Virus record (IMG/VR): IMGVR_UViG_3300028908_000003
Coordinates: 1 to 47,323 of that record
From: a virus
Reading direction: 5' to 3' (one strand)
DNA length: 47,323 nt
A program made the translations under genes and the position numbers. The notes under the pieces were generated by a model. It saw nothing but the letters and a program-made list of their open reading frames with translations, was not told where the DNA came from and ran no database searches. Position 1 is the first letter of the stretch; the number at the start of each line of letters is the position of its first letter. This document shows, piece after piece, positions 19,920 to 47,323 of the stretch.

Positions 19920-20191
19920 AAGGACCCAAGTGGAAAGGTATCCCGTGCCTATTGAAAGGGGGACCCCTCGCAGGCTGGGAAACCGAGGTCTCGGCCCGTA
20001 CAAGGTTCGGCAAGCCTACGGATGAGCCTCCAAACGTGATCCCTATCTTCAGGAAGGGCCGCTATGTGATCAGCGGCAGAGACGGAAAAATGGTCGTTTA
20101 CACCTGGCTGCCAGCTTTGAAACGACCCGCAAAATGGGAGGAGAGAGGGGTTTCAAGGGCGCCGACCGGGCCGGAGGTGTCCAATGTATGA
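19916..20191 (+). CDS. Small GGPxxG-type hypothetical protein
   Basis: A 91-residue protein (MKGPKWKGIPCLLKGGPLAG...) with a GGPLAGWETEV element near the N-terminus and YVISGRDGKMVVYTW in the middle. It is a possible distant relative of the 12223 gene, which has the same layout. It starts as ATGA. It is the last plus-strand gene before the bidirectional-looking terminator at 20213-20257. Confidence 0.6.
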   Translation: MKGPKWKGIPCLLKGGPLAGWETEVSARTRFGKPTDEPPNVIPIFRKGRYVISGRDGKMVVYTWLPALKRPAKWEERGVSRAPTGPEVSNV

Positions 20192-20561
20192 GGTCAATGG
20201 TCCTGGTTCGGTAAAAAAAAAGGCTCAGGGAAGTCTGGTTTTCCCTGTCCGTGAGCCATTTTCCAATGACTCCAAGAACGATGGTGTCCCGTTCGAATGG
20301 GTCTTTTGTCCTTTTCCCAGCCAATTCTTTGGCCTGCAAGACGATCGAGGCCAGCTTGAAATAGGACCATTGGTGCGCTTCGCATCGCTCAAGGATCCGT
20401 TCTTCCAGGCCAACGTTCTTTCGGTAGGAGGGGAGAAAGAACCGGAGAAGAGTCCGGATCCCAGGAATGGTGGGAAGGAAGACATCCCGTCCTTGCCCGT
20501 CAATGACGTGGCGACTTTCCTTCGCCTTCAGATGGGAGAGGAAAGAGATCGTTCGCTCCAT
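20070..20561 (-). CDS. Minus-strand ORF, possible independently expressed cargo gene
   Basis: A 163-residue reading frame against the surrounding rightward genes. Residues 1-115 have normal protein character: helical with balanced charge (MERTISFLSHLKAKESRHVI, then LEERILERCEAHQWSYFKLA and FERDTIVLGVIGKWLTD). A promoter candidate lies directly upstream; transcription from it would start at or next to the ATG, giving a leaderless message. An intrinsic terminator lies at 20257-20213, inside the frame, and the last 45 residues beyond it look like antisense of the 19916 gene. Either the frame is interrupted near the T9 run or the true end differs. It competes with the plus-strand ORF 20184-20603. 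No family recognised. Confidence 0.4.
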   Translation of the reverse strand: MERTISFLSHLKAKESRHVIDGQGRDVFLPTIPGIRTLLRFFLPSYRKNVGLEERILERCEAHQWSYFKLASIVLQAKELAGKRTKDPFERDTIVLGVIGKWLTDRENQTSLSLFFYRTRTIDLIHWTPPARSAPLKPLSPPILRVVSKLAARCKRPFFRLCR

Positions 20562-20603
20562 GGTTCTGATCCTACCACAGAGGCTGAGGATGGTCAAGCA
20601 TGA
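20184..20603 (+). CDS. Plus-strand ORF opposite the minus-strand candidate
   Basis: A 139-residue frame with features of a gene: GGAGG six bases before the ATG, overlap with the preceding stop, and ATGA overlap with the gene at 20600. Its composition (many Pro, Phe, Ser and Gly, few helices) is what one expects of the antisense of a real gene, and its codons are in exact register with the minus-strand frame. Its codons 10-25 contain the terminator hairpin at 20222-20257. One of the two frames is probably a shadow; the sequence alone does not settle which. Confidence 0.4.
   Translation: MYEVNGPGSVKKKAQGSLVFPVREPFSNDSKNDGVPFEWVFCPFPSQFFGLQDDRGQLEIGPLVRFASLKDPFFQANVLSVGGEKEPEKSPDPRNGGKEDIPSLPVNDVATFLRLQMGEERDRSLHGSDPTTEAEDGQA
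20213..20257 (-). terminator. Intrinsic terminator, stronger on the minus strand
   Basis: GGCTCAGGGAA pairs with TTCCCT...GAGCC (six-base bulge, eight-base loop). On the minus strand the hairpin is followed by nine Ts. On the plus strand only ATTTT follows. It therefore ends leftward transcription and may weakly end the spike operon. Confidence 0.75.
20569..20597 (-). promoter_or_regulatory. Leftward promoter candidate of the 20 kb cassette
   Basis: On the minus strand: TTGACC (20597-20592), 17 bases, TAGGAT (20574-20569). The -35 is five of six. The -10 and spacing are identical to the rightward early promoter at 8234-8262. The ATG at 20561 lies about where transcription would begin. Confidence 0.55.
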
Positions 20604-20863
20604 GCGGCAAGTTCGAAAAGCTCACCATCAGGAGACTTCGGTATCTTTGCAACGAGCCGGCGGAATGCCTTCGTTGCGGGAAGATCCTTTCCCCGATCTT
20701 TGCTCCAGGCATCTATGAGCCGGCCGCTTTCGTGTGCAGGAAATGCGAATTCATGGTGATCGGAGTCCAGGCATGTTCGACATACAAGGCATCGCTGAAA
20801 AAGATACAGTCCAGAGGTTTGCAGAGGTCCTCAAGATACCAGAGGATACCTCCAGGAAAATAA
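20600..20863 (+). CDS. Zinc-ribbon protein
   Basis: An 87-residue protein with C23-L-R-C26-G and C46-R-K-C49, a two-knuckle zinc ribbon, ahead of a basic tail. The last 30 codons overlap the following gene in another frame and look less protein-like (Ser/Arg/Lys/Gln-rich). The functional part is probably residues 1-58. It overlaps the upstream ORF by ATGA. Confidence 0.65.
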   Translation: MSGKFEKLTIRRLRYLCNEPAECLRCGKILSPIFAPGIYEPAAFVCRKCEFMVIGVQACSTYKASLKKIQSRGLQRSSRYQRIPPGK

Positions 20864-21051
20864 TCTGGCTCATTGCCACTTGCTTCGAAGCCCTATCTGA
20901 AAATCTCGGGCTTGGGCTCCCAAGCATCGAGCCAAAGGTTTTCTTGGAGATCCTCTTAGACCAGATCGAAGGAAAAGAAAGACCAATTATCTTTGAGGAT
21001 CTTGATCGGTTGTTCCCAGGTCTTTCGACGATTATGAAGGAAAGGAGCTGA
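20773..21051 (+). CDS. Hypothetical protein before the structural genes
   Basis: A 92-residue helical protein (MFDIQGIAEKDTVQRFAEVL, then RKIIWLIATCFEALSENLGL). The start at 20773 has CGGAG seven bases upstream and lies inside the zinc-ribbon gene, an unusually long overlap of 91 bases for this genome. Ends ERS, two bases before the next start. No family recognised. Confidence 0.6.
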   Translation: MFDIQGIAEKDTVQRFAEVLKIPEDTSRKIIWLIATCFEALSENLGLGLPSIEPKVFLEILLDQIEGKERPIIFEDLDRLFPGLSTIMKERS

Positions 21052-21053
21052 CC

Positions 21054-21533: not shown

Positions 21534-21988
21534 CCACCATCACGCCAAAGCCAGCAATGGCATACAACGTTCCCAACAACAGCCTCCAGTTGGAGGCTAG
21601 TGGGACATCTATGACGATAACGCCTCAACCTGCCAGGGCATTCAATGTTTGCCAAGGACAGACGGATATTACGATCTCCAATGGGAAGGAGTATTTCGCA
21701 CCGGACAATCTGGTTTACAACCTTCTCATAGCACGGAAAAGAGTGGAGTTAGGGTTCCACCAGGCTGTAAGTGATAATGAGTGGGAAGCGTTGAGAAACG
21801 CTTTCAAGGAGATTGAAGATGCCTTGGTTGAAATCTGGAGCGCCCAGGCTTCAGCAGACAAGGCGTCTTTGCAGCAAAAGGTTCAGGCTGCGAACAATTA
21901 CATCCAGGGTTTCCAGTATGAAGACTTGGTTCTTTACTTCGATAGGGCGAACGAGGATATTGTCAATTGGACTCCGCCGGTAGTTTAG
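21530..21988 (+). CDS. Hypothetical protein, probable virion component
   Basis: A 152-residue protein. The N-terminus contains two similar segments, TTITPKPAMAYNVPN and MTITPQPARAFNVCQ, an internal repeat of about 28 residues that suggests two small beta units. The C-terminal 90 residues are helical (ALRNAFKEIEDALVEIWSAQ). It is coupled to the 21054 gene by ATGA. A role beside that protein in the virion is likely by position. Confidence 0.6.
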   Translation: MTTITPKPAMAYNVPNNSLQLEASGTSMTITPQPARAFNVCQGQTDITISNGKEYFAPDNLVYNLLIARKRVELGFHQAVSDNEWEALRNAFKEIEDALVEIWSAQASADKASLQQKVQAANNYIQGFQYEDLVLYFDRANEDIVNWTPPVV

Positions 21989-21996
21989 GAGGAAAA

Positions 21997-22296
21997 ATGG
22001 AACTCAAGACGACGGGGGATTGGTATCTGATCAGGCGAGACGTGGAGGACGAGAGGACGAAAGGGGGCCTTATCCGGCCGGATACTGCAAGACGGCCGCT
22101 TCCAAGGGGGGTCGTGATCCAGGTTGGAGACGAGATTCGAAGGAAGCTAAGCAAAGGGGAGATTGAGGGCCCGCGTGTAGGGGATTATGTGTTCTTTCCT
22201 GACGCCGCAGCATGGGACGTTGAAATTGAAGGAGAGCCTTTAACCGGTGTTCATTACGGGGACATTACGGCCTGGAAAGCTCGCAAAGAAGCATGA
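21997..22296 (+). CDS. GroES-like co-chaperonin
   Basis: A 99-residue protein with the Cpn10 pattern along its length: MELKTTGDWYLIRRDVED (strand 1), TKGGLIRPDTARRPLPRG (the mobile-loop region and following strand), VVIQVGDE, then GPRVGDYVFF and the final strand DITAW. Length matches GroES (about 97). Phage co-chaperonins such as T4 gp31 replace host GroES on the GroEL ring so that the phage capsid protein fits and folds. Its place among the structural genes, six kilobases before the capsid gene, agrees with that role. The ribosome site GGAGG-AAAA-ATG fixes the start. The strand order and TKGG...PDTA motif make this a good call; the client is inferred. Confidence 0.75.
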   Translation: MELKTTGDWYLIRRDVEDERTKGGLIRPDTARRPLPRGVVIQVGDEIRRKLSKGEIEGPRVGDYVFFPDAAAWDVEIEGEPLTGVHYGDITAWKARKEA

Positions 22297-23362
22297 GCTG
22301 AAACTTCGGGCCTATGATGAGAATACCAGGAAGGACCTGATTCGTATTCTTAACTCCCTGGACCATCTACCTGTAGAGGAACAGAACATCCAGGGGTTTG
22401 AAGCTCTCCGTGCGTACTGGCCGGAAGAGGAGGAATGGATCCAGAATTGCCTATGGATTGCAACGAAGAAAAGGGGCGGAAAGCAACTGCTCAGATTCAA
22501 CTCTGTTCAGCAGGAAGTGAGCAAGGCCATCAAGAGAGTTGAGAACGAAGGTCGAGCTGTCCGCCTGATTATCCTCAAGGCCAGACAGATGGGACTTTCC
22601 ACTTACATTCAGTCCAGGTTCTTCACTGCAACCTGCCTGCATGAAGGGGTCCAGGTCTTCTCTGTAGGAAACAAGAAGAGCACCACCCAGAACCTTATGG
22701 GTATGTGCCGGCGGTTCCTTTCCAACCTGATCTTCAAGCCGCCGATGGAAGAAGAAACCAAGCTTAGCCTGGTATTCCAACATGATTCCTCCTTGAAGGT
22801 GGAGACGGCGCGAGCCGGAGAAGAGACGGGAAGGTCCGCTACTGCTCACATGGTTCATTTGTCGGAACTCGCCTTCTACCCGGACCCAGAATCGGCCATG
22901 ACTGCGGTCTTGCAGATCCAGGGAGATGGCCCAGGGACCTGGACGATTGTGGAATCCACGGCAAATGGTGCCGGGAACTACTTCCACCAGATCTGGCTTG
23001 ATGCCGAAGAAGGCAGGTCCGACTTCATCCCCCTATTCTTCCCGTGGTTCAAAGACCCAAGCTACAGGATGGAGATTCCTGATACGCAGAAGATTGTCTT
23101 TGAGAGATCCCTGGATGAAGAGGAAAAGAATCTCCGGGAAAGGTTCAACCTGGAACTGGAACAACTATTCTGGAGGAGATGGATCATCCGGAACAAATGC
23201 CACGGGTCCATTGATGTGTTCCACCAGGAATATCCATCAACTCCTGATGAAGCTTTTTTGCACTCAGGGGCTCCGGTGTTCGATATAAAAAGGCTTACCC
23301 AGTTGGAACAATACACCAGAAGGCCAAAAAGGTATGTTCTTGGGATGAAGGATAGTCCATGA
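22247..23362 (+). CDS. Terminase large subunit, ATPase half (split gene)
   Basis: A 371-residue protein holding the packaging ATPase domain. The Walker A-like motif is K111-ARQMGLST119, the Walker B region is HMVHLSELAFY at 201-211 (E207 catalytic, with S where Asp is usual) and the coupling motif is VESTANGAGNYF at 235-246. The frame ends at 23362 after DEAFLHSGAPVF, just where other large subunits pass into the nuclease domain. The nuclease is encoded separately at 23516, in the same frame, with a small ORF between. The protein would power DNA translocation into the portal. The GTG start lies in the co-chaperonin gene and has a poor ribosome site, so the exact N-terminus is uncertain. Confidence 0.85.
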   Translation: MFITGTLRPGKLAKKHELKLRAYDENTRKDLIRILNSLDHLPVEEQNIQGFEALRAYWPEEEEWIQNCLWIATKKRGGKQLLRFNSVQQEVSKAIKRVENEGRAVRLIILKARQMGLSTYIQSRFFTATCLHEGVQVFSVGNKKSTTQNLMGMCRRFLSNLIFKPPMEEETKLSLVFQHDSSLKVETARAGEETGRSATAHMVHLSELAFYPDPESAMTAVLQIQGDGPGTWTIVESTANGAGNYFHQIWLDAEEGRSDFIPLFFPWFKDPSYRMEIPDTQKIVFERSLDEEEKNLRERFNLELEQLFWRRWIIRNKCHGSIDVFHQEYPSTPDEAFLHSGAPVFDIKRLTQLEQYTRRPKRYVLGMKDSP

Positions 23363-23514
23363 GAAAGATAATCGTCCGCAGTAGAGCCAGTCTCAGGCCC
23401 AAATCCTTCAAGGAATTCTTGAAGGACATGAAGATCAAGTTGGTGGATGACCAGACGGTAAAGCTTTACCTGGAGTATATCATCCAGCATGAAGGTTTGA
23501 AGAAGTTCTTGTAA
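23359..23514 (+). CDS. 51-residue ORF between the two terminase halves
   Basis: A basic 51-residue protein beginning MRKIIVRSRASLRPKSFKEF, with a second helix VKLYLEYIIQHEGLKKFL at the end. It starts as ATGA on the ATPase stop and ends one base before the nuclease ATG, so it is coupled to both. It carries no homing-endonuclease motif and is not part of any terminase domain I know. It may help the two halves assemble, or be an unrelated insertion. Confidence 0.6.
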   Translation: MRKIIVRSRASLRPKSFKEFLKDMKIKLVDDQTVKLYLEYIIQHEGLKKFL

Positions 23515-23515
23515 G

Positions 23516-24268
23516 ATGGAAATCACGGCAATCGAGGCAGAGAATGGTCCGGTAAGAGTTTGGGAAGAACCCAAACCGAACATGGACTATGTAATCGGTG
23601 CCGATATTGCTGAAGGGAAAGTCTCAAAGGACATCCATGATCCTACCGGGAACAAGAGGGACTGGTCTGTTGCTTTCGTTTTGAAAGTGAAAGACGCTTC
23701 TATCGTCGCACAATACAAAAGCCAGGTAGATTCTGCGACTCTTGCCGTGGACCTATTCATGCTTGGGGCATGGTATAACTGGGCTCTCCTTGCTCCCGAG
23801 ACCAACTCAATGGGGATTGGCGTGGTTCACATGCTTTCCCAGGCCGGCTATCCAAACCTATATCAACCAAAGGTTGGTCCGTTCCAGGCAAACACAGGGA
23901 TGGCGGATTACCTTGGTGTTAGGGCTATGGGATGGGTGACGACAAAGGCAACCAAGCCCATCCTTGTGGCTGCGATCCATGAAGCCTTGGCGAACGGCAA
24001 CAGGATCCCGAGCGTGTCTCTCATTCGAGAACTCAAAACCATCGAATTCGACAGTAACGGGAGGATTGGAGCCCCTCAAGGAGGCCACGACGACCAGATG
24101 ATTGCCTATGGGATTGCGCTTGTGGTGCTCCAGGATTTCCTCGGTGGACGAGCTGGGAACGCAGATTTCAAACAAAACCTCCCAGATGAGGACGCTAGAA
24201 TTTGGCGATTGGTGAAGGAGGAGGATGAGAAGATGGCAGTTGAGGAGGAAGAATTTTATGGCTGGTGA
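23516..24268 (+). CDS. Terminase large subunit, nuclease half (split gene)
   Basis: A 250-residue protein with the RNase H-like nuclease domain of large terminases. Acidic motifs: YVIGADIAEG (D30), LLAPETNSMG (E95) and GGHDDQMIAYGIAL (D193, D194). This half would cut concatemeric DNA at the start and end of packaging. It begins with a few residues before the first strand (GPVRVWEEPKPNMDYV), a stretch normally reached after a linker from the ATPase. It has only a weak ribosome site, so translation probably depends on coupling to the 51-residue ORF. The C-terminus is acidic (EEDEKMAVEEEEF). Confidence 0.85.
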   Translation: MEITAIEAENGPVRVWEEPKPNMDYVIGADIAEGKVSKDIHDPTGNKRDWSVAFVLKVKDASIVAQYKSQVDSATLAVDLFMLGAWYNWALLAPETNSMGIGVVHMLSQAGYPNLYQPKVGPFQANTGMADYLGVRAMGWVTTKATKPILVAAIHEALANGNRIPSVSLIRELKTIEFDSNGRIGAPQGGHDDQMIAYGIALVVLQDFLGGRAGNADFKQNLPDEDARIWRLVKEEDEKMAVEEEEFYGW

Positions 24269-28436: not shown

Positions 28437-29732
28437 ATGGCTACTTGGTACGACACCCCAGCAAATCTCGCTCAGTACAACGACATTTTCCGTGAGATCC
28501 TGCTTCCTCCGGTGCGGGATCAGATCAACAGGGAGGTGTTCCTGGTAAATGTTCTTGCCAGGCATACGGTCCCTGTTGGTGAAGGAAAGAAATGGGAAAT
28601 CCCGCTTTCCTACGGAAGGAACGAAGGTGTTGGTTCCACTCGTGAGAACCGATACCTTCCTCCGGCCGGCCGGCAGTCCATGGATCGTGCGTGGCTCCAG
28701 CCTGCGCACGTCTATGGAAGGATCCTTCTCACTGGTGTGGTCAAGGATCTCACCGAAGGGAATGTGGGATCTGTCGCAAACGCCCTCACGGAAGAAACTC
28801 GTGGCCTTGCCATCAACATGAAGCAGGAAATGTGCCGAATGCTGTATGGCGACGGCCAGGGCATTCTTGCCCAGGTGGATGGTTCCAAAACCCTCGCGGC
28901 CTCTGGTAGCGATTCCGTTACCGTCCATTACCCGTGGGGTGATTCGAGGGCTGAGAACCAGGCAACCTTCCACATCAGAGAGAACATGTATATCGCTTTC
29001 GTGGACGCATCCTCTCATGCCGTCCATGCAAGCGGTCTTGTGACTTCCGTTTCTTCGACGGCCGTGACCTTCACCATCATTTCTGGTGGTGGCGCTGTCG
29101 TGGATGATGATTACATCGTCCGCGTGAACGACGTCGGGTCCTCTGTCCCGAGTCTCCAGGATACGGGCCATTCCTATGATCCCGAGACCGATCCTGCCGA
29201 ACCTTACGGGTTGATGGCGATCGTTTCGGATTCCAACCCTGGTGCCTCTTCCGCCTTCATGGGTGTTCCTTCCTCGAACACGTGGTGGCAGGCATACGTT
29301 CCGAGTTCTGGCGGTGGTGGATCTCTTACGGATCTCGCTGTCCAGGAAGCGATGGACTCCGTTGGGATCGCTTCCGGCGAACATCCCAACCTGCTCCTGA
29401 CCACCTACAAGGTGAGAAGGGAATATGCCAACACCCTGACCTCTCTGAAGAGGTTCGTGAATACTACGACCCTCCAGGGCGGTTGGACTGCTGTCGAGGT
29501 GAATGGCTCTCTCATGGTTCCTGATTTCCTCGCTCCGGAGGCCATGCTGTTCCTGCTCAACACCAATGAACTGGCGTTGTGGCAGGTGAAGGACCTCCAG
29601 TGGATCGATGATGATGGAGCCATCCTCCACAGGTCCGAAAACGTGGACCGGTTCCAGGCCACCATGAAATGGCGGATGAACCTCGGAACCATGCGCCGGA
29701 ACGCCCATGGCTTGCTGTATGACGTTGCGTAA
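28437..29732 (+). CDS. Major capsid protein
   Basis: A 431-residue protein following the scaffold, with a strong AAAGGAG ribosome site. The N-terminal arm (MATWYDTPANLAQYNDIFRE) leads into a segment typical of HK97-fold capsid proteins (FLVNVLARHTVPVGEGKKWE, then RILLTGVVKDLTEGNVGSVA). An inserted Ser/Gly/Val-rich beta domain spans about residues 150-290. The C-terminal part contains EYANTLTSLKRFVNTTTLQG and the P-domain-like VEVNGSLMVPDFLAPEAMLF. It forms the icosahedral shell, and is a likely client of the co-chaperonin at 21997. The stop overlaps the next start as TAATG. Confidence 0.85.
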   Translation: MATWYDTPANLAQYNDIFREILLPPVRDQINREVFLVNVLARHTVPVGEGKKWEIPLSYGRNEGVGSTRENRYLPPAGRQSMDRAWLQPAHVYGRILLTGVVKDLTEGNVGSVANALTEETRGLAINMKQEMCRMLYGDGQGILAQVDGSKTLAASGSDSVTVHYPWGDSRAENQATFHIRENMYIAFVDASSHAVHASGLVTSVSSTAVTFTIISGGGAVVDDDYIVRVNDVGSSVPSLQDTGHSYDPETDPAEPYGLMAIVSDSNPGASSAFMGVPSSNTWWQAYVPSSGGGGSLTDLAVQEAMDSVGIASGEHPNLLLTTYKVRREYANTLTSLKRFVNTTTLQGGWTAVEVNGSLMVPDFLAPEAMLFLLNTNELALWQVKDLQWIDDDGAILHRSENVDRFQATMKWRMNLGTMRRNAHGLLYDVA

Positions 29733-30115
29733 TGCTTCGTCCACCGAAACACATTGAGGACGCCATCAGACGAGTCTTCCCTATGGTGAAGCTCGTCTGG
29801 TGGCGCAAAGGAAGGAGATGGGCGCTGATTTCTCTGGCCGGGAGAAATTTAGCGCCCATCCACCTTTACCAACCCAACGAGAAGCCGACGATGAAGAACA
29901 CTCTCGGGCTTCTCCGTGCCGCTTCCATTGCGCATCTCAAGAACCGTTGGGATGTAGACGAATGGCTTTGGAAGAACGTGGACAGCAAGAACGACAAGAT
30001 CATCCAAGAGGGCAGGGAGAAGCTTCAGGAAGCGAGTCACGAGGCTGCCAAGAGGATGATCTTCATCAACAAACCGAGCATCAGCATTGTGAACCCTTGG
30101 GGAAGAAAGAAGTGA
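29732..30115 (+). CDS. Hypothetical protein after the capsid gene
   Basis: A 127-residue basic protein (IEDAIRRVFPMVKLVWWRKG RRW at the start, helical AASIAHLKNRWDVDEWLWKN in the middle). The start overlaps the capsid stop by one base (TAATG) without its own ribosome site, so it depends on capsid translation. Genes here usually encode head completion or decoration proteins; no motif confirms that. Confidence 0.65.
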   Translation: MLRPPKHIEDAIRRVFPMVKLVWWRKGRRWALISLAGRNLAPIHLYQPNEKPTMKNTLGLLRAASIAHLKNRWDVDEWLWKNVDSKNDKIIQEGREKLQEASHEAAKRMIFINKPSISIVNPWGRKK

Positions 30116-38107: not shown

Positions 38108-41100
38108 ATGACCCAGCCGGTGGTCCCTGGAGCGCAAGATGCGCGCCAGCTCCAGCAACTTGACGAGGTCAAGCAGAAATGGGCGGAAGCCTATGCGTTG
38201 GAGCAGGCGAAGTGGGATGCTTGGACCCATACCAAGCTAGAAGAGCCTACCATTGACCTCTCGAAGGTGGTCCCCTCTGCTCCGCCACCGGTCTACGATG
38301 TCACCGAGATCATTACTCCTGACTTTGCCAAGAAGCTGGGTGTGGACCCCGAAAAGGCAGAGAGCGGCGAATACCTGAAAACCGGCAACCCCATCCAGGA
38401 ACTCTATAAGGTCCCATGGCAGAACCTCTTGCAGGTCGTTTCCATGACGGGATGGAAGGCCCCCACGGTTCCTGCGTCTGACGTAAATACTTACAGGGTC
38501 CTTCGTTCCCTTGCCATGCTCCCCAAAGAAAAGCGGATGGAGGGTCTTTGGCAGATACAGCAGCTCATCTATGAAAAGGGGGTTCTGGAGAGGATCGGGG
38601 ATGTAGCCATCAAGGAGGTTGTGGGCCAGGACACCTATGATTCCTGGCTTTCCATGTCGTCCAGTGGAGGACTGAAAAAGCTCCTCATGCAGGCTTTGGG
38701 GTCCATGCAGGACCTGAACGAGTCCTTCCTGGACGTGGCTTTCATGGACAAATTGACGGGTGCCATGGCAAAGCTGGGTTTCCCCCTTCATGAGGTGGAA
38801 GCTACGGCAGGAAAACTTGCGGAAGACTTGTGGAAAAAGGCCCCGGAGAACGTCCGGGACACCATGGTAGAACTCACTCAGAGGGCGGCCAGAAGGAAGC
38901 TCCTCGGGCTCTTTGGCTTGTCCTCCTCCTCGTGGTGGACCTCCATCATTGAGAATGCCGGCGGAGTGATGGGGTTCATTGCACCTTTTGGCCTTACCTC
39001 CACGGCCTTGAAGGCCGGCAAAGTAGGGATAAGAGCCGGCGAGATGATCCTCGGGAAGGCGGCCGTGAGGACGGCCGAGGCCCTGGAGAAGGTGGCCGGC
39101 AAGAGCGAAAGGGTTGCTAAGCTCTTCCAGGATGTCGGCGGCCTGGCAGAGAAAGCCGTCTCTGCCCCCAAGGTCAAAGCCCTCCTGAACATTGCTCGTG
39201 GCATTGGCGAGGAAGCCGCTGTTGGTGCTGGGTATGAAGCGCTCCTCTCCATCGAAGACAAACATGCAGACGCTGGCAGGGGGGCCCTCACATTCTCCCT
39301 CTTGCACGTAATGAGTCTTCTGACGGAAGCCATGGGCCGGAAAATTCCGGAGCGCACCTTCTGGAAGACCTTTTATGGGACCTTCAAAGGAGCTGCTACA
39401 GGTGCGGTCTTACACCACCTGGACTTCCATAACTTTGACGTTTTGTGGCGGATGCTCTCGGATCCTAAGAGCGTTTCGGACCCCGAGAGGCAGGCTTATT
39501 TCCAGGGCTTGGTCGGCTCCATGGCCGGCATGGGGCTGGCCGATGCCATGCAGGCATTCAACCAGGCCAGGGATATTGCCACGTTGGACCTTGCTGGTAA
39601 GACGCGGCAGTTTCTGGAAGCGACCAAAGATGAGGGTGCCAAGGCGATCATCCAGTCCCTGGACCGCCTAGTGAAGTTCAAGCTGGTACCGGAGTCTTCC
39701 AAGGAATGGGAAGAGCTGGATCCTGCGATCAAAGACAAGTCCATCATCATCGTCCAGGGGATGCGAGGAATCCCTGTTGAGGCGGTTAGAGAGGGCGTAG
39801 AGCCGCCGGATCCAACCTCCCCGGAGGTCCAGAAGGCTTTCCTGATTGACGGCCTCAGAGGTGCCTTAAAGAGCCCTGATCCTGCCGTGGCGAGGCTATG
39901 GGTCGAGCTGATGCAGGACATCGGCCACAAGATCCAGGCCGCTGGAGATAGCCAGGCAAAAGCCGCCGGCAACATCATCCTGAAGCTTGCGGATACAGTG
40001 GCAAAGCTTCGCGGGCTCAAGGGTATAAGTGGCTTGTTCGGAGACGGTTTGACTTGGATGCACAAGCCTTTGTCTCCGAACGAGGCGGAGGTGGTGGTCT
40101 CAAAGATCGCGTCGGCGTTGGAACCCTACATTGGGAAGGTCGGCCCCAAGGAGAATCACTTTGCCAAGCCGCCGGCCGCAGAGACAAAAATGGAGGCGCC
40201 CGAACCTCCAGAAGGAAAGGGGATCGTCCAGCTCAGGCTTGGCTCTGACGGCTCCAGAGAGGCCATCCTGAACCCGGAAGGAACCGAGGGAAGCCTTACC
40301 CTCAGATTCCATGGAAATGGCGTAGACATCGAATATGTGGACCAGGAGGGCCAGAAACATGTGGCTCATGGGTCCACCTACATGGGGGCCATGAGGGCCA
40401 TGGCGGACCAGCGGCCCAGCATGGAGCCTCAGACGTTGAGAAACCTGGATGCCCTCCAAGAAGTCCTCCAGCAGGACATGCACCAGAAGGGCTGGGACTG
40501 GCTCTACACGGGGGAATACCAGGAGGACCCCAACCGGTATGCCCTCATGGCGAAGACGGACTGGAAGACTCTCCTCCAATACATGACATCCGTCCCCCCG
40601 TCCGAGAGGAGCGCCAGGTTCCAGAGAATTGCGAGCGCCCTCCAGGATGCCGGGATGGATCTCAACTTCCTGGACCAGGTTTCCCAATCCCTTGGCGAGT
40701 TCAAGGACCGGACGGTCTCCAAATACATGGAAGGCCTGAAGGAGACCCTCTTCCAGGACTCCCTTTACCGGGCCGGTGAGCTTGTTTGGGTTGGGATCGA
40801 TGCGGAAGGGAAGCCAGTAGTCTCCAAGCGCTACTTGAAGGGCGCTGCGGAAGTCGGGCTTTCCAAAGATATGCCGCGCTCCCTGATTGAGACCACCCTC
40901 CACGAGATCGCGCTGGAGCGGGCAGACCAAAGACGGGTTCCCTCAGAACCGCTGGACCTCAAAAAGGTCTCTGACTGGAACCTCTACCGGATCGAGGTCA
41001 ACCCCAAAGATCCCAATGAGTTCCACGTGGAACAGGCCGGCCCTGGTAAGGAAATGAAAGACGGGGTGTATGTGGCTCTCGCCCCTATCAAAGACGGCTT

Positions 41101-44100
41101 CGTTGAGAGGATTCTACGATACAAGGATGGAAAGCTGGTCCAGGCTTCCGCTGCCGATGTTGTCAAGAAGGGCCGGACCATTTCGGCTATCTTGAGGAAA
41201 GCGGCCAATCTCTCTTGGTCGCAGTCTCGAAAGAGAGAAGTCGAAGGTTCCCTAACACTTACCAAAACTGCCACCAAGGCCATCAAGGATCTTAAGAAAG
41301 CCGGCGTGATCAATGATCAGGTGGAAGCCGCGCTCAAGCTCCTGGCATTGAAAGGGAAGAATCTGGATGTTGTTGTCCAGGTTCTGAAGAAGATCCCGGA
41401 CGTTCCGCTTGTGCATTACGGGGAGACTCCTACTGCCGGAGAAGCCAAGGCCTTGACGGAGAACGTGGTGGGCTACGTGAAGGGGCCTGCCGGAAAGGTT
41501 CCTTTCCAGGCCACGGTGATCTCCCTGGCCCATGGCGCCGACCACATCGATGCCATGCACGAGTTCCTCCATGCTTGGTGGTTCCAGGCTTCAGAGGCTC
41601 AGAGAAAGCAAGCCCTGGATGCAGTAATGGAACTTCCCCTTGCGCAAAAGCTGGCGGAAAAGGGGATGTATCCGGATGAGATCTTTGCTTCCGTCTTGAG
41701 CATCAAACTCCGCAAACCAAACCTTCTGACCCAGGATTTCCTCAAGAAGACCGGCATTCCAAAGGATGTGCCGCAGATCGTGGAATTCCTGGACAAGGCC
41801 TTGAGGGCTCAGGATGGAGGGATTTCCTCTCTGGACCAAGTCTACCGATCGATCTTGCTGGGTGAACCAGCCCTTCCCAAGAAAAAGACTTTGGGCCAGC
41901 TTGTTCCCATAAAGGAGGAACTTCCTGCAACCGTTACCACGCCGGAAGAAACCTCAAAAGCTTTGGAAGAGGCCGCCAAGGTTTCAGAGCAAAGTCCTCT
42001 GACCGAAAAAGTCATTGTCTTCCAAAAGGCCACGAAGGAGGAACCGGAGGAAATCACTTTCTCCAAGCTTGCAACCTCCAGAGAAGCGGCCGGGAGATAC
42101 GATAACGAGACTACGTATCTCAGGCAGATCCTTGTTCGTCGTGAACTTCCTTCCAGGGAAGAGATCCAGAGAGATTTAACCTCTCTTTACTACGCACTCG
42201 GCAACCCTTACCGTGTAACCTCAGACGGGATGGTTCACTTGGATCTTCCACATGCCTTCTCCCAGCCGATTGCAAAAGGTTGGAAGGCACCAGAGGAAGG
42301 ACTGGAAACCAGGGTAAAACTTGGATATTTGCTTGAGAAGGCTCCGGAAAGGGTTGCGGAATATGTCTCTATGGCGGTCCCGAAGGAGGCCAAGGAAGCC
42401 GGGGTTTCCCTCGGAGAAATCGGGGATCTTCTCAATTCAAAGACGGCCTTGTTCGTGAAGGAATTGAGCCGCCGGCTCCACAATAAAGGCATCAAGACTT
42501 TCCTTTTCACGTCAAGGATCGACCTTGCCCAAGATCTGATCGGCACCCCCGGTCTTCATGTATTCGAGCGGCTTTGGCCTGATCCATTCCAGGCTTACAA
42601 CGCTTCCATTTCCAAGGGATTCAAGGAACTTTACCTTTCCGATGTCGGGGCTGCTCCTTTGGATCTCACCCTGTCGCTGTTCATTGAGGAAGCCAAGAAG
42701 AACGGGATCCCTGACCCGATTCGTTTGATCAAGCGGATCAAAGTGAGGCCGAGCCTGAAGCGCAACCAAGAAATGTTTCAGGAAATGCTTCAGGTTTTGA
42801 GGCGTCATGGTATTATGGACCCCGAATCCTTGATGGTGCCGCCGCACGATGTGTCTCCACAAGTGGCGGCGAGTTACATCCAGGATCTTGGCAGAAAGAC
42901 AGAAATTCCTCCCTCGCCGCAGTCTTGGGAGAAATGGCCGGACCCGACGCCGGAGGTCCGACCTTCCTCCACTTCCTCATCACGCCTAGCCAGATCCCAC
43001 GAGTCAGAGACACGATTGAGGCTCTCAAAGGCAGCGGCGAGGGAGATTCTTTCTTCCATTGGTTCCAAGAAAGATTCCCTTCCTCCAAGAGAATACGTAG
43101 AAAAGCTTGGTGCCCATGCCAATGCAGTTTGGCTAAACGTGGGAGCCATCTACAAGGCGGTAAGGGAAGGGAAAGATCCATCTTCTTTGTGGTTTGTCAA
43201 AGGAGGGAAGATCCTTCCCAAGGATGGCAGGTCCGCAGAAATTCTGGACGAAGCCTTCCTATGGCATAAAGGCTCCAGGAAGAAAGTAATCAAGGCCATC
43301 GATGAGTTCCGGAAGGAAATCTCAGAACCTTTGGTGGACTACGAAAAGGCTTTTGAGAAGGTTATCAAGGTCCTGGATGAATGGGAGCTGAACAGGAAAC
43401 CACCGTCTCAGAAGGACCTTGTTCCTTTGGGTGCTTGGGCAGCGGCTGGAGGTGCCCAGGAAGATGGCACGTGGGGGAGGACTCCTCTCCTTGCCCTTGC
43501 GGATGCTCTCCGTGGGATCGTCCAGGCATATAGCCTCGTGAAAGTAGATTTCAACCTCGCCCGCCAGCTCATGGAGGAAGCGAGAACCATCCTCTCCGAC
43601 CCGGTCGTCTCTCTATTCGAATCTGAAACTCCAGATCCTCTCTATAAGAGGACCTTTGATGCCGCGCAAGGCACCTGGGCCAAGGGTGAATACCGCCTCT
43701 CTGTCGAGATCGATCCGGCCGGCCTGGACAAGGTGGAGGATGTAGTCAAAGACAAGGCCGTTGAAGAGATCGATCCAGCCACGGCAAGGAAAACCAGGTT
43801 CCTCTCCAAATGGGAACCTTATGTCCAGGATGTAACAGAAAAACAAGCTGTTACCCAGATTGATTTGCTTGGCTGGTTGACCGAGTGGTTTGCGGAAGGT
43901 GAGCAGGTTGTGGGAACCAACATGGCTCTTACCTTCCATGATGCGCTCTCCCTGGAGACCAAGGCCGAAGAGAACCACCAGAGAGAATTCCGCCGCGTAT
44001 TGAAGGATCTTCCAAAAGGAAAGCTCAAGGAAGAGGCGGAAGCGATCTTTATGCAGGCCGTGGATGCTGGCAATGATAAGGACCAATTCGAAGCGGCCAT

Positions 44101-46588
44101 GAAGCAGGCTCGGGATTTCATGGAAAGGAATCCCGGGAAAGGGAATTTGGTCGGTGCCATCGAGAGGTATGTGAAACTAATGAGGAGAGTAAGGAACCAT
44201 GTGCTTCCTTACACTCCGGCCATGATGAAGCTTCGACGTCACCTCTCAGCCTATAATATCAAGCTGGCCCATTACAGAAGCATGGTGGATCAGCGTTCCA
44301 GGGAGGTTTCTGCCGCTGAAAACCCGGATCAGGTTCAGAGGCTTGAGAGGTCACTCAAGTATTACAAGGACAAACTGAAAGAGGTGGAGGAGAAACGTTC
44401 CGAGATCGCCTCCACCATTTCAGAATACATCAAGAATTGGGGTTCTAAGTGGTATTATGCTCATAGGTTTGAGCGGGTTCATCCGCTTTGGGAGGGAGCA
44501 GGCCCCATCAAGAAGCTTTGGCTTTGGGCTGTAGGAGTCCCGAAGACCATTCCTTTGACCAAAGCTTATGATGAGATCACGAAGTTCGGAGAACAATCCC
44601 TGGCACCATCTTCCATTCTAGGCCGGCATCTTCGCCATAGGAAAGAAGGGAAGCTTGGGTATTCCATGGATTTCAGGAAGGTGATCCCTTCCTATCTTCG
44701 GTCGATCCATCGAGTGGTAGCCTACAACAGGGCCATGGAGGTCCTGGACGCCAGGATCAATGGACATTTCATGCCGGTGGAATCTTTCTGGCGGCAATTG
44801 AGAGAAGGCGAAGAACTCATCTACAAGGGAGGTAGGTGGAAATATATCGGTTGGCACGAGAACAAGAAGGGGAGCCCACTGATCGTCCTCCAAAGCCTTT
44901 CTGTCCCTTCTGATTTCCTGGAGGTAAGCCCGTTTGACCGAGCACTCCAGGCGAAAAGAGGTGGGATTCTGGATCTGTATGGTCCGGAAGCTGCCAGACG
45001 CGTCGAGGATTATTTGAAGAGGATCCGCGGCGTGAAGGCCATGCAGTCCGATGGAATCGTGATGGAATCCATTCGCGGAATCAATCGAAGATTCCGGAGC
45101 CTGTTTTACCATACTCTGCTAGGCCTTGGGAATTTCCCGGCTGCAACGCAAAACTTCATCGGCGGCCAGCTCATGAACGTGATCGAGTATGGCCCAGGCT
45201 ACTTCCAATCTTTCGCCAAATTCTTCAAAGATAAAGAATTCCGCGCGGAAGTCTCCCACTATATGAACACGTTTGCCGTTGCGGAAACCACTCTCTTCCG
45301 TAGAGAAATCCACGAAACTACCGCCGGCTCAGTGAAGGAGTTCCTTTCCAAACTTTCGTTCTTCCCATTCTCTTCAATCGAATTCCTGAACCGGTTCACT
45401 TCCTATGTCGCCGGATTCGACAAGGCGAAGCAGGAAGGATTGAGCGGAAGAGCTGCGCATCTCGCAGCTTTGCGTGGGGTTTCCCATACCCAGTTCCTCT
45501 TCTCTTCCGCAATGAGCCCAAAGGTGTTTCAGAATGAATTCTGGAAGACCTTCTTGATGCTATGGCAGTATGGTTTCCGCTTCACCGGGAGGTTTGGGAA
45601 GTGGACCACGATTGCCAGGAAGAATCCCGAGTTCCTCTTCCGTTACATTGCCATTGCCGGCCTTTCCAACTGGGTCCTACAGAGATATTTCGGACTCCAG
45701 GCCTTTGATGCCATTGGGTCTTACATGGATGAGATTCCAGGCTTCAAGAAGCTTGGCTTGAGTATTTGGGAGAAGACAGGGTGGAGGCCGCAGATCCCTG
45801 GGATCTTTCCCTTTGGTCTTGCTGCACCCGTAAAGGTTGTGGCTGACATGGCCGGCGCAACCACGGATACCATTACCGGCCAGGACCCCATGGCTTTGCA
45901 GAAGTTCCTCCAAAGGGACATCGGCCTTCTGATCGGGACCCAGACCAAGAGGTTCTTTGACCTCCTCTCTGCCGAAGAGCAGGACGACGGGTCTTATGTG
46001 ATTCGATACGCCGAAGATCTTGCGGAGTTCCTTGGACTCAAGCCAAGGTCTGGGGCGGTACAAAAGAAGAGAGAGAGCCACCAGGATCTGATCTTTGATT
46101 TCTTCGCCGGCTCCCATTCCACCTTGGACGAGACCCTCTACAACCATTTGAAGCTCATGGGATTTGTCGCGGATTCCATGAGGAATGAAGCCAAGCTGTA
46201 TCACAACCTGATTAAGAGAGGGGCCAGGCTGGCCGCCCTCGGATACAAGATCGAGGGGGCCGCGGCCATTCGAAACGGCGTCAAGAGCCTCATGGAGAAA
46301 GGGATGCCGGCCCCTTCCGCCAGCTATATCCTCAAGTATGCCCAGCTTGTGGATGCTCCCAAGGACTTTCAGGCGCTCCTTACTCTTGGCGTTCCTAAGA
46401 ACAAAAAGATCCAGATTCTCACAAGTCTCTTGCATGAAGAGAATGTTTCCGGTCATTATCAACATACCCTGGAAGAGCTCCAGGTGGTAACCAAGGCTCT
46501 TATTGGTAATGGCGAAGGAATAGACCCGGAGACTGCAAGAAACTTTGTGCGTGAATATAGGTTGTTTCAAGAGAAGGTAGAACGGTAA
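38108..46588 (+). CDS. Giant polyvalent ejection protein with zincin motif
   Basis: A 2826-residue protein, 18% of the genome. It belongs by size, position and sequence style to the large polyvalent proteins that are carried in the virion and enter the host with the DNA. Visible parts: an Ala/Gly-rich helical hydrophobic segment at about 280-330; a glycine-rich middle; a zinc metallopeptidase-like site H1151-E-F-L-H1155 with a possible third ligand E1191 (YPDEIFASVL); a long coiled segment at about 2040-2110; and a C-terminal aromatic helical region (FLMLWQYGFRFTGRFGKWTT) common to such proteins. I see no RNA polymerase motif or lysozyme signature. Likely roles are DNA delivery and protection from or processing of host proteins. 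Ribosome site GGAGG. Confidence 0.75.
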   Translation: MTQPVVPGAQDARQLQQLDEVKQKWAEAYALEQAKWDAWTHTKLEEPTIDLSKVVPSAPPPVYDVTEIITPDFAKKLGVDPEKAESGEYLKTGNPIQELYKVPWQNLLQVVSMTGWKAPTVPASDVNTYRVLRSLAMLPKEKRMEGLWQIQQLIYEKGVLERIGDVAIKEVVGQDTYDSWLSMSSSGGLKKLLMQALGSMQDLNESFLDVAFMDKLTGAMAKLGFPLHEVEATAGKLAEDLWKKAPENVRDTMVELTQRAARRKLLGLFGLSSSSWWTSIIENAGGVMGFIAPFGLTSTALKAGKVGIRAGEMILGKAAVRTAEALEKVAGKSERVAKLFQDVGGLAEKAVSAPKVKALLNIARGIGEEAAVGAGYEALLSIEDKHADAGRGALTFSLLHVMSLLTEAMGRKIPERTFWKTFYGTFKGAATGAVLHHLDFHNFDVLWRMLSDPKSVSDPERQAYFQGLVGSMAGMGLADAMQAFNQARDIATLDLAGKTRQFLEATKDEGAKAIIQSLDRLVKFKLVPESSKEWEELDPAIKDKSIIIVQGMRGIPVEAVREGVEPPDPTSPEVQKAFLIDGLRGALKSPDPAVARLWVELMQDIGHKIQAAGDSQAKAAGNIILKLADTVAKLRGLKGISGLFGDGLTWMHKPLSPNEAEVVVSKIASALEPYIGKVGPKENHFAKPPAAETKMEAPEPPEGKGIVQLRLGSDGSREAILNPEGTEGSLTLRFHGNGVDIEYVDQEGQKHVAHGSTYMGAMRAMADQRPSMEPQTLRNLDALQEVLQQDMHQKGWDWLYTGEYQEDPNRYALMAKTDWKTLLQYMTSVPPSERSARFQRIASALQDAGMDLNFLDQVSQSLGEFKDRTVSKYMEGLKETLFQDSLYRAGELVWVGIDAEGKPVVSKRYLKGAAEVGLSKDMPRSLIETTLHEIALERADQRRVPSEPLDLKKVSDWNLYRIEVNPKDPNEFHVEQAGPGKEMKDGVYVALAPIKDGFVERILRYKDGKLVQASAADVVKKGRTISAILRKAANLSWSQSRKREVEGSLTLTKTATKAIKDLKKAGVINDQVEAALKLLALKGKNLDVVVQVLKKIPDVPLVHYGETPTAGEAKALTENVVGYVKGPAGKVPFQATVISLAHGADHIDAMHEFLHAWWFQASEAQRKQALDAVMELPLAQKLAEKGMYPDEIFASVLSIKLRKPNLLTQDFLKKTGIPKDVPQIVEFLDKALRAQDGGISSLDQVYRSILLGEPALPKKKTLGQLVPIKEELPATVTTPEETSKALEEAAKVSEQSPLTEKVIVFQKATKEEPEEITFSKLATSREAAGRYDNETTYLRQILVRRELPSREEIQRDLTSLYYALGNPYRVTSDGMVHLDLPHAFSQPIAKGWKAPEEGLETRVKLGYLLEKAPERVAEYVSMAVPKEAKEAGVSLGEIGDLLNSKTALFVKELSRRLHNKGIKTFLFTSRIDLAQDLIGTPGLHVFERLWPDPFQAYNASISKGFKELYLSDVGAAPLDLTLSLFIEEAKKNGIPDPIRLIKRIKVRPSLKRNQEMFQEMLQVLRRHGIMDPESLMVPPHDVSPQVAASYIQDLGRKTEIPPSPQSWEKWPDPTPEVRPSSTSSSRLARSHESETRLRLSKAAAREILSSIGSKKDSLPPREYVEKLGAHANAVWLNVGAIYKAVREGKDPSSLWFVKGGKILPKDGRSAEILDEAFLWHKGSRKKVIKAIDEFRKEISEPLVDYEKAFEKVIKVLDEWELNRKPPSQKDLVPLGAWAAAGGAQEDGTWGRTPLLALADALRGIVQAYSLVKVDFNLARQLMEEARTILSDPVVSLFESETPDPLYKRTFDAAQGTWAKGEYRLSVEIDPAGLDKVEDVVKDKAVEEIDPATARKTRFLSKWEPYVQDVTEKQAVTQIDLLGWLTEWFAEGEQVVGTNMALTFHDALSLETKAEENHQREFRRVLKDLPKGKLKEEAEAIFMQAVDAGNDKDQFEAAMKQARDFMERNPGKGNLVGAIERYVKLMRRVRNHVLPYTPAMMKLRRHLSAYNIKLAHYRSMVDQRSREVSAAENPDQVQRLERSLKYYKDKLKEVEEKRSEIASTISEYIKNWGSKWYYAHRFERVHPLWEGAGPIKKLWLWAVGVPKTIPLTKAYDEITKFGEQSLAPSSILGRHLRHRKEGKLGYSMDFRKVIPSYLRSIHRVVAYNRAMEVLDARINGHFMPVESFWRQLREGEELIYKGGRWKYIGWHENKKGSPLIVLQSLSVPSDFLEVSPFDRALQAKRGGILDLYGPEAARRVEDYLKRIRGVKAMQSDGIVMESIRGINRRFRSLFYHTLLGLGNFPAATQNFIGGQLMNVIEYGPGYFQSFAKFFKDKEFRAEVSHYMNTFAVAETTLFRREIHETTAGSVKEFLSKLSFFPFSSIEFLNRFTSYVAGFDKAKQEGLSGRAAHLAALRGVSHTQFLFSSAMSPKVFQNEFWKTFLMLWQYGFRFTGRFGKWTTIARKNPEFLFRYIAIAGLSNWVLQRYFGLQAFDAIGSYMDEIPGFKKLGLSIWEKTGWRPQIPGIFPFGLAAPVKVVADMAGATTDTITGQDPMALQKFLQRDIGLLIGTQTKRFFDLLSAEEQDDGSYVIRYAEDLAEFLGLKPRSGAVQKKRESHQDLIFDFFAGSHSTLDETLYNHLKLMGFVADSMRNEAKLYHNLIKRGARLAALGYKIEGAAAIRNGVKSLMEKGMPAPSASYILKYAQLVDAPKDFQALLTLGVPKNKKIQILTSLLHEENVSGHYQHTLEELQVVTKALIGNGEGIDPETARNFVREYRLFQEKVER

Positions 46589-46923: not shown

Positions 46924-47292
46924 ATGAAGTATTTCGTGATCGGCTTGGCGTTGCTTTTTCTTGGGATCTTTCTTGGGTCCTGTTCGATTCATGTTCCTCC
47001 GGAGGCCAGGAAGAAACTGGATGCTCTCCAGCAGGAGGCTCTTTTCGTCTACAAGAAGATCAATTCCGGGGAGTTGACGGTGGCCGAGGCCCAGGAGCAC
47101 CTGGCTAAGATCTATGCTCAGACCATCGAGGTTTTGAAGACCATTCCGCGACCCTTGAACATCAGCGACATTCTGAACTATTTGCTTTACATCCTCTTCG
47201 GAAGCGGCGGAGGGTTGATGGGATACTTCTTCCATACGAGGAGAGTCCTAAAGAAGACGGGTGTCCTTCCTCCCAAGGGAACGCCGGCATGA
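46924..47292 (+). CDS. Lipoprotein with C-terminal membrane helix, u-spanin-like
   Basis: A 122-residue protein. Residues 1-20 are a lipoprotein signal with lipobox L-G-S-C20 and Ser at +2, which favours the outer membrane. Residues 25-78 form a helical periplasmic part (ARKKLDALQQEALFVYKKIN). Residues 82-103 are a Gly-rich membrane segment (LNYLLYILFGSGGGLMGYFF), followed by a basic cytoplasmic tail. Lipid anchor at one end and membrane helix at the other is the plan of unimolecular spanins such as phage T1 gp11, which fuse inner and outer membranes at lysis. It follows two small membrane ORFs. No endolysin is next to it. The ribosome site is GGAGGCGGAG. The gene continues across the circle junction. 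Confidence 0.65.
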   Translation: MKYFVIGLALLFLGIFLGSCSIHVPPEARKKLDALQQEALFVYKKINSGELTVAEAQEHLAKIYAQTIEVLKTIPRPLNISDILNYLLYILFGSGGGLMGYFFHTRRVLKKTGVLPPKGTPA

Positions 47293-47323
47293 GTAGATTC
47301 AAGGTGATCATGAGGGATGGGCT
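47197..47323. repeat. Terminal direct repeat, right copy
   Basis: This is identical to bases 1-127; see that entry. It contains the end of the spanin-like gene and the start of the RusA-like gene. Confidence 0.95.
47289..47323 (+). CDS. Start of the RusA-like gene (duplicate of 93-127)
   Basis: The first codons of the RusA-like gene, MSRFKVIMRDG, seen again because of the circular overlap. The complete gene is at 93-512. Confidence 0.9.
   Translation, partial: MSRFKVIMRDG

Follow-up and report, generated by a model that had tools for sequence, protein, structure and literature searches.

The large terminase subunit (TerL) of the phage studied here is divided between two genes, with the ATPase motifs in one ORF, the nuclease motifs in another, and a small ORF standing between them. 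The sequence gives good support to a clean insertion that left two intact and coupled TerL genes. From conservation and structure prediction in this one uncultured genome, a functional two-chain terminase is more probable than a ruined gene.

The terL locus and its three ORFs

The window, that is, the whole stretch of 47,323 bases of the virus record, begins and ends with the same 127 bases (1-127 and 47197-47323, an exact direct repeat), as would be left by an assembler closing a circular genome with a 127-base word. Because this repeat lets the contig close on itself, the phage genome, of about 47.2 kb, is probably complete. Over the whole record, about 88% of the bases fall in ORFs picked by codon score. 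Profile matches over the same record gave one ATPase match and one nuclease match, hence a single terL and no second intact copy; in a contig that closes on itself, the split terL is thus the only one of the phage. It belongs to a head module read in a single direction, which comprises a GroES-like co-chaperonin, the terL pieces, a small ORF, a portal of the P22/SU10 type (Pfam and PHROGs) and the major head protein (phrog_14242).

An earlier note on this DNA had placed the ATPase and nuclease motifs on separate ORFs of the same frame around a 51-residue ORF, and the coordinates were confirmed (Table 1). The spacer ORF, read in a different frame, starts on the first stop through an ATGA overlap and ends beside the second start, with one base between its stop and the nuclease ATG (TAA-G-ATG), as the note had described. 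In the outer frame, six stops (at 23360, 23369, 23420, 23429, 23459 and 23498) interrupt the spacer region, so that the break cannot be explained by a single sequencing error, a point on which the note was likewise right. An alternative genetic code was rejected, since both TGA and TAA close the outer frame and one reassigned stop would not open it. In the spacer's own frame, a TAG (23353-23355) is found just upstream of its ATG. The nuclease start has the second weakest SD of the 30 starts scored, only that at 29732 being weaker.

Table 1. Features of the terL locus (positions in the window)
Feature	Position	Strand	Details
GroES-like co-chaperonin	21967-22296		directly 5' of terL, overlaps terL start; phrog_3188, E 2e-9
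ATPase half of TerL	22247..23362	+	GTG start, 371 aa, TGA stop; SD-like GAAGGAGAG upstream
Presumed Walker A-like P-loop segment	22574..22603	+	residues 110-119; K111, R113, Q114, G116, S118 invariant, 75 sequences
Presumed Walker B segment and catalytic Glu E207	22847..22879	+	E207 invariant, 75 sequences
C-terminal tail of ATPase ORF, within the predicted nuclease fold	23270..23359	+	residues 342-371; helix 347-354, strand 361-367
SD-like site GAAGGA	23347..23352	+	six bases before spacer ATG; pairing energy -5.5 kcal/mol
Spacer ORF	23359..23514	+	51 aa; start overlaps ATPase stop (ATGA)
Nuclease half of TerL	23516..24268	+	250 aa; own SD weak, -1.4 kcal/mol
Catalytic Asp D30, nuclease chain	23603..23605	+	conserved column; aligned with gp17; equivalent of T4 D401
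Catalytic Glu E95, nuclease chain	23798..23800	+	conserved column; equivalent of T4 E458
Catalytic Asp pair D192-D193, nuclease chain	24089..24094	+	conserved columns; region of T4 D542

Openness of the spacer is by itself weak evidence of a gene, since off-frame stretches of the same 153 bases are open at 12-17% of positions. Its codon use is more telling: at 0.323 bits per codon it exceeds 76% of 826 windows taken from the real genes of this genome, whose mean is 0.221, and none of 991 stop-free off-frame windows does as well. By codon use the spacer therefore reads like a real gene, which argues for its translation. No homologue was found in Pfam and PHROGs (E up to 1), NCBIfam (E up to 10), PDB, the phage and plasmid collections or IMG/VR, and at the same thresholds in Pfam, PHROGs and NCBIfam no homing-endonuclease family was matched. 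Predicted alone, the product is a tail plus helices of poor confidence (pLDDT 59). Residues 16-46 (23404-23496) gave an ungapped 31-residue match of 5.6 bits to the nuclease profile of the terminase, over a part with helix-strand-helix structure. None of 1000 shuffles did as well, but 6 of 5000 windows from real proteins did; hhalign of the spacer against this profile gave E 0.01, with 3 of 300 as good. Against the ATPase profile, the match was equalled by 256 of 1000 shuffles. Descent of the spacer from a TerL fragment is a weak lead, which we do not claim.

Conserved residues, fold and relatives

The ATPase ORF matches the PHROG large terminase family phrog_2 (E 6e-15), the nuclease ORF matches phrog_2 (E 2.5e-5) and phrog_38407 (E 5e-16), and the profile of the TerL family matches T4 gp17 (E 3e-31). 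The first chain has a P-loop ATPase with a coupling motif and with segments that we take to be Walker A-like (residues 110-119) and Walker B (around E207); the second has an RNase H-type nuclease with an acidic triad (D30, E95, D192, D193). The ATPase, the RNase H-type nuclease and the strongly conserved residues are thus common to the T4 gp17-type large terminases (PDB 3cpe, 3ezk; phrog_2), the acidic triad of the gp17 nuclease being D401, E458 and D542 (PMC9958956). A TerL normally has both domains on a single polypeptide, and here they are on separate ORFs. T4 gp17 is one chain with a hinge reported as essential in PMC9958956, whereas two genes and a spacer ORF are found in this phage.

Column conservation was computed over 187 full-length relatives. 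The ATPase half keeps 37 of 37 columns that are 95% conserved and 52 of 53 at 90%, the nuclease half 15 of 15 and 22 of 22. Distances from the proline of QEYP to the first catalytic Asp were measured in 207 of 208 distinct related proteins, three broken loci (L153, L194 and L247) having been dropped beforehand. With the halves joined, this linker has 70 residues, and the relatives have a median of 65 (range 55-144, n=207), so that the linker residues that the earlier note suspected to be missing are all present. Were the spacer counted, the linker would have 121 residues; it exceeds 101 in one of the 207 relatives. The TerL sequence is complete, with no residues lost. In FastTree trees of the halves the branch of the record is long, at 1.3-1.4 changes per site. 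This indicates an old lineage and says nothing on when the split arose; it could be so recent that decay would not yet show.

An AlphaFold2 model of the read-through protein, built on 75 sequences, has a mean pLDDT of 85.7. Residues 341-370 of the ATPase ORF are predicted at pLDDT 85-93, the spacer, read out of frame, falls below 50, and the nuclease ORF takes over at model residue 424, its first strand spanning 426-430. Structures of isolated ATPases stop at model residues 338-346 (T4 2o0j at 342), and those of isolated nucleases start aligning at 338-343; the nuclease of RB49 (3c6a) superimposes with Z 22.5 over 186 of 198 residues at 2.1 Å and that of G20c (5m1o) with Z 23.0 over 180 of 188 residues at 1.9 Å. 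Since isolated nucleases align from 338-343, the nuclease fold takes in the final ~30 residues of the ATPase ORF. In the model, the cut is therefore placed about 30 residues inside this fold and not at the ATPase/nuclease boundary; it separates two strands, one on each chain, which would pair across the chains. By sequence alignment the cut is near residues 372/373 of T4 gp17, and the T4 ATPase-domain structure ends upstream, at 360. The claim of the earlier note that terL is split into ATPase and nuclease genes hence stands for the division of the motifs, but a cut at the domain boundary does not.

The 252 related loci scored comprised 8 named phage records, 164 IMG/VR loci and 80 loci of bacterial genomes, some of them sharing a contig. 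Both domains are on one uninterrupted ORF in 232, so the split is not a habit of the family, and none of the 252 is split at the same place as the record, the occurrence in relatives raised by the earlier note finding no example among these loci, all of them distant (best segments of 42% identity or less). Two loci (L153 and L194) are broken inside the ATPase and one (L247) inside the nuclease, in each case by frame or stop changes, in contrast to the clean cut of the record. Fifteen loci match the ATPase profile only: four are cut by the locus end, and the other 11 are long ORFs (510-592 residues) whose nuclease is out of the reach of the profile. The two loci that match the nuclease profile only are both cut by the locus end. 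Five more named phages have one CDS of 1533-1692 bases at terL. No close relative was found in IMG/VR through the nuclease, portal, capsid, spacer or 2826-aa protein, or at the DNA level in the phage collection; these scans rely on exact short peptides or words, so relatives may be overlooked. The split state is known from one genome, with no close relative sharing it.

In the nuclease tree the record stands beside a marine viral clade (SH-aLRT 95), while in the ATPase tree its position is another one, weakly supported. The placement of the nuclease tree is nonetheless not rejected by the ATPase data (AU p 0.459); in these trees five distant phage rows (L011-L015) were omitted. The larger FastTree trees likewise disagree between the halves, again with low support for the ATPase. 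A mosaic origin, with halves taken from different phages, is not supported. Two PHROG families are each matched by one half only, phrog_24361 (162 positions) by the nuclease and phrog_26724 (192 positions) by the ATPase, and from them TerL fragments may occur in other phages too; no first case is claimed. In the parts of the literature covered by our search, we found no terL with its ATPase and nuclease on separate genes that lacked an intron or intein.

Proposed origin and working of the divided terminase

The herpesvirus terminase gene, which is spliced from two exons, offers a parallel, as do the split topoisomerase and the bypassed gene 60 of phage T4. Group I introns in terL are reported for the Jug phages, with splicing backed by RNA reads (PMC12363816), and for Bacillus phages of the Bastillevirinae, with splicing backed by an assay (PMC11878797). 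There, as here, terL pieces lie within one operon; the accounts given in those papers have a ribozyme, often with a homing endonuclease, restoring one mRNA, in contrast to the 51-codon ORF and the lack of an Rfam intron in this phage. The TerL intein of cyanophage Mic1 (PMC7156551) is also an insert inside TerL, but one that is read in frame and protein-spliced, unlike the insert here with its stops and change of frame. An intein was rejected on these grounds, the insert being out of frame and the outer frame being closed by six stops. Aeromonas phage Aeh1 offers the best parallel in its nrdA, an essential enzyme described as functional in two genes with a gene between and no intron, after insertion of a homing endonuclease (PMC3653736). 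It counts in favour of a two-chain TerL, with the differences that the enzyme is another one and that the insert here encodes a 51-residue protein of no recognisable family.

We propose, with slightly better than an even chance of being right, that clean insertion of a small gene gave rise to a terminase of two chains, which come together again by fragment complementation, and that translation of the nuclease is coupled to that of the spacer. On this view, a coding segment of about 155 bases would have entered terL at a turn close to where the nuclease domain starts, deleting none of the gene and converting the single terL into three coupled genes. The spacer would be translated by termination-reinitiation at the ATGA, and ribosomes leaving it would restart at the nuclease ATG, which has little SD. 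Because this ATG adjoins the spacer stop with almost no SD of its own, the spacer would be at least a translation bridge. The two TerL chains would then associate without a covalent bond, the nuclease chain completing its fold by taking up the tail of the ATPase chain; it can do so because the hinge, along with one helix and one strand of the nuclease fold, has stayed on the ATPase chain. For T4 gp17, PMC9958956 reports that the separated domains keep ATPase and nuclease activity and lose translocation, the hinge being essential, which counts against a two-chain reading and in favour of a disabled gene. Complementation would, however, hold the chains to each other past the hinge on which translocation by T4 gp17 depends, a reason why the present split might function although the T4 domain split fails.

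The earlier note had wavered between a two-chain motor with a small partner and the remnant of an inserted element, and both are partly right, a clean insertion leaving two intact coupled genes being well supported. From the first, the two intact coupled TerL genes are retained, and the 51-residue product as a motor subunit is not borne out. From the second, the clean insertion is retained without a name for the element, in which neither a homing-endonuclease family nor an intron signature was recognised. For the spacer protein, the likeliest role is that of a passenger or a translation bridge; it is possibly a decayed homing-endonuclease remnant, or a third subunit of the motor. In the latter case the packaging motor would be of several chains, the ATPase chain lending its helix and strand and a dedicated small helical protein of 51 residues bridging the chains or regulating the nuclease in place of the covalent link. 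The gene-like codon use of the spacer, its own SD-like site and its position between the halves, with three products made in line, would fit such a role. We regard it as unlikely, considering that the spacer lacks a homologue in all databases searched, that its fold is poorly predicted (pLDDT 59) and that the relatives build the motor without it. Less likely still is a recent disabling insertion or recombination scar in a non-functional copy from a decaying prophage or a dead lineage. It would agree with the absence of the split from all 252 scored relatives, but neither half shows decay, both junctions resemble those of ordinary coupled genes, the contig closes on itself with most of its bases in codon-scored ORFs, and a consensus sequence would come more probably from a living population than from a dead phage.

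A single chain could also be made if the insert were removed before or during translation, by a short intron or by ribosome bypassing. Known terL introns make this conceivable, and the insert, a multiple of three in length, preserves the outer frame. Nevertheless, across the whole record no Rfam family matched at gathering, around the insert an E of up to 5 gave one irrelevant match (E 0.63, an lncRNA family), RNA folding is ordinary (z -1.1), and the insert has about 155 bases filled by an ORF whose codon use argues for translation, while the known introns averaged 802 bases in PMC11878797. An intron was rejected on its lack of an Rfam ribozyme and of unusual folding, its small size and its coding content; by eye, no matched take-off and landing codons for bypassing are conspicuous beside the first stop. 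Removal of the insert is accordingly rated as quite improbable. The spacer is open in its own frame from junction to junction, so that shifts at both ends would fuse all three ORFs, and two compensating frameshifts, by assembly error or programmed, might hide one long TerL with a 51-residue insert. Since both frames have stops, the shifts would be confined to about 8 bases (TAG 23353 to TGA 23360) and about 14 bases (TGA 23498 to TAA 23512), with a slippery run seen at neither junction. Moreover, chance would have to account for a start codon preceded by an SD-like site at a suitable distance, and the linker of 121 residues would compare with 101 or fewer in 206 of 207 relatives. This is the most improbable of the explanations considered.

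How movement of the ATPase domain reaches the domain that grips and cuts the DNA is an open question in viral packaging. Should packaging in this phage rely on two unjoined chains, the link need not be covalent, in contrast to the covalent hinge described for T4 (PMC9958956). A two-chain terminase would also allow the halves to be altered or dosed one by one in a natural system, and it would be another essential phage enzyme living in pieces, after the split nrdA.

Other features of the genome

Several ORFs lie at 19920-21053, none of them at the codon-score threshold used for gene picking, and no small terminase subunit was recognised there or elsewhere in the record. A single ORF of 2,826 residues (38108-46588) accounts for 18% of the genome, and scanning IMG/VR for its peptides gave no relative. 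The ORF at 29732-30115 has a start without any SD pairing that overlaps the stop of the capsid gene, likely another coupled start. For the major head protein (28437-29732), the nearest counterparts are in Arthrobacter and Microbacterium phages, at 25-27% identity. The kinship of the phage is thus mixed, with a capsid nearest to these phages, a P22/SU10-like portal and a terL nearest to marine and Bacillota loci.
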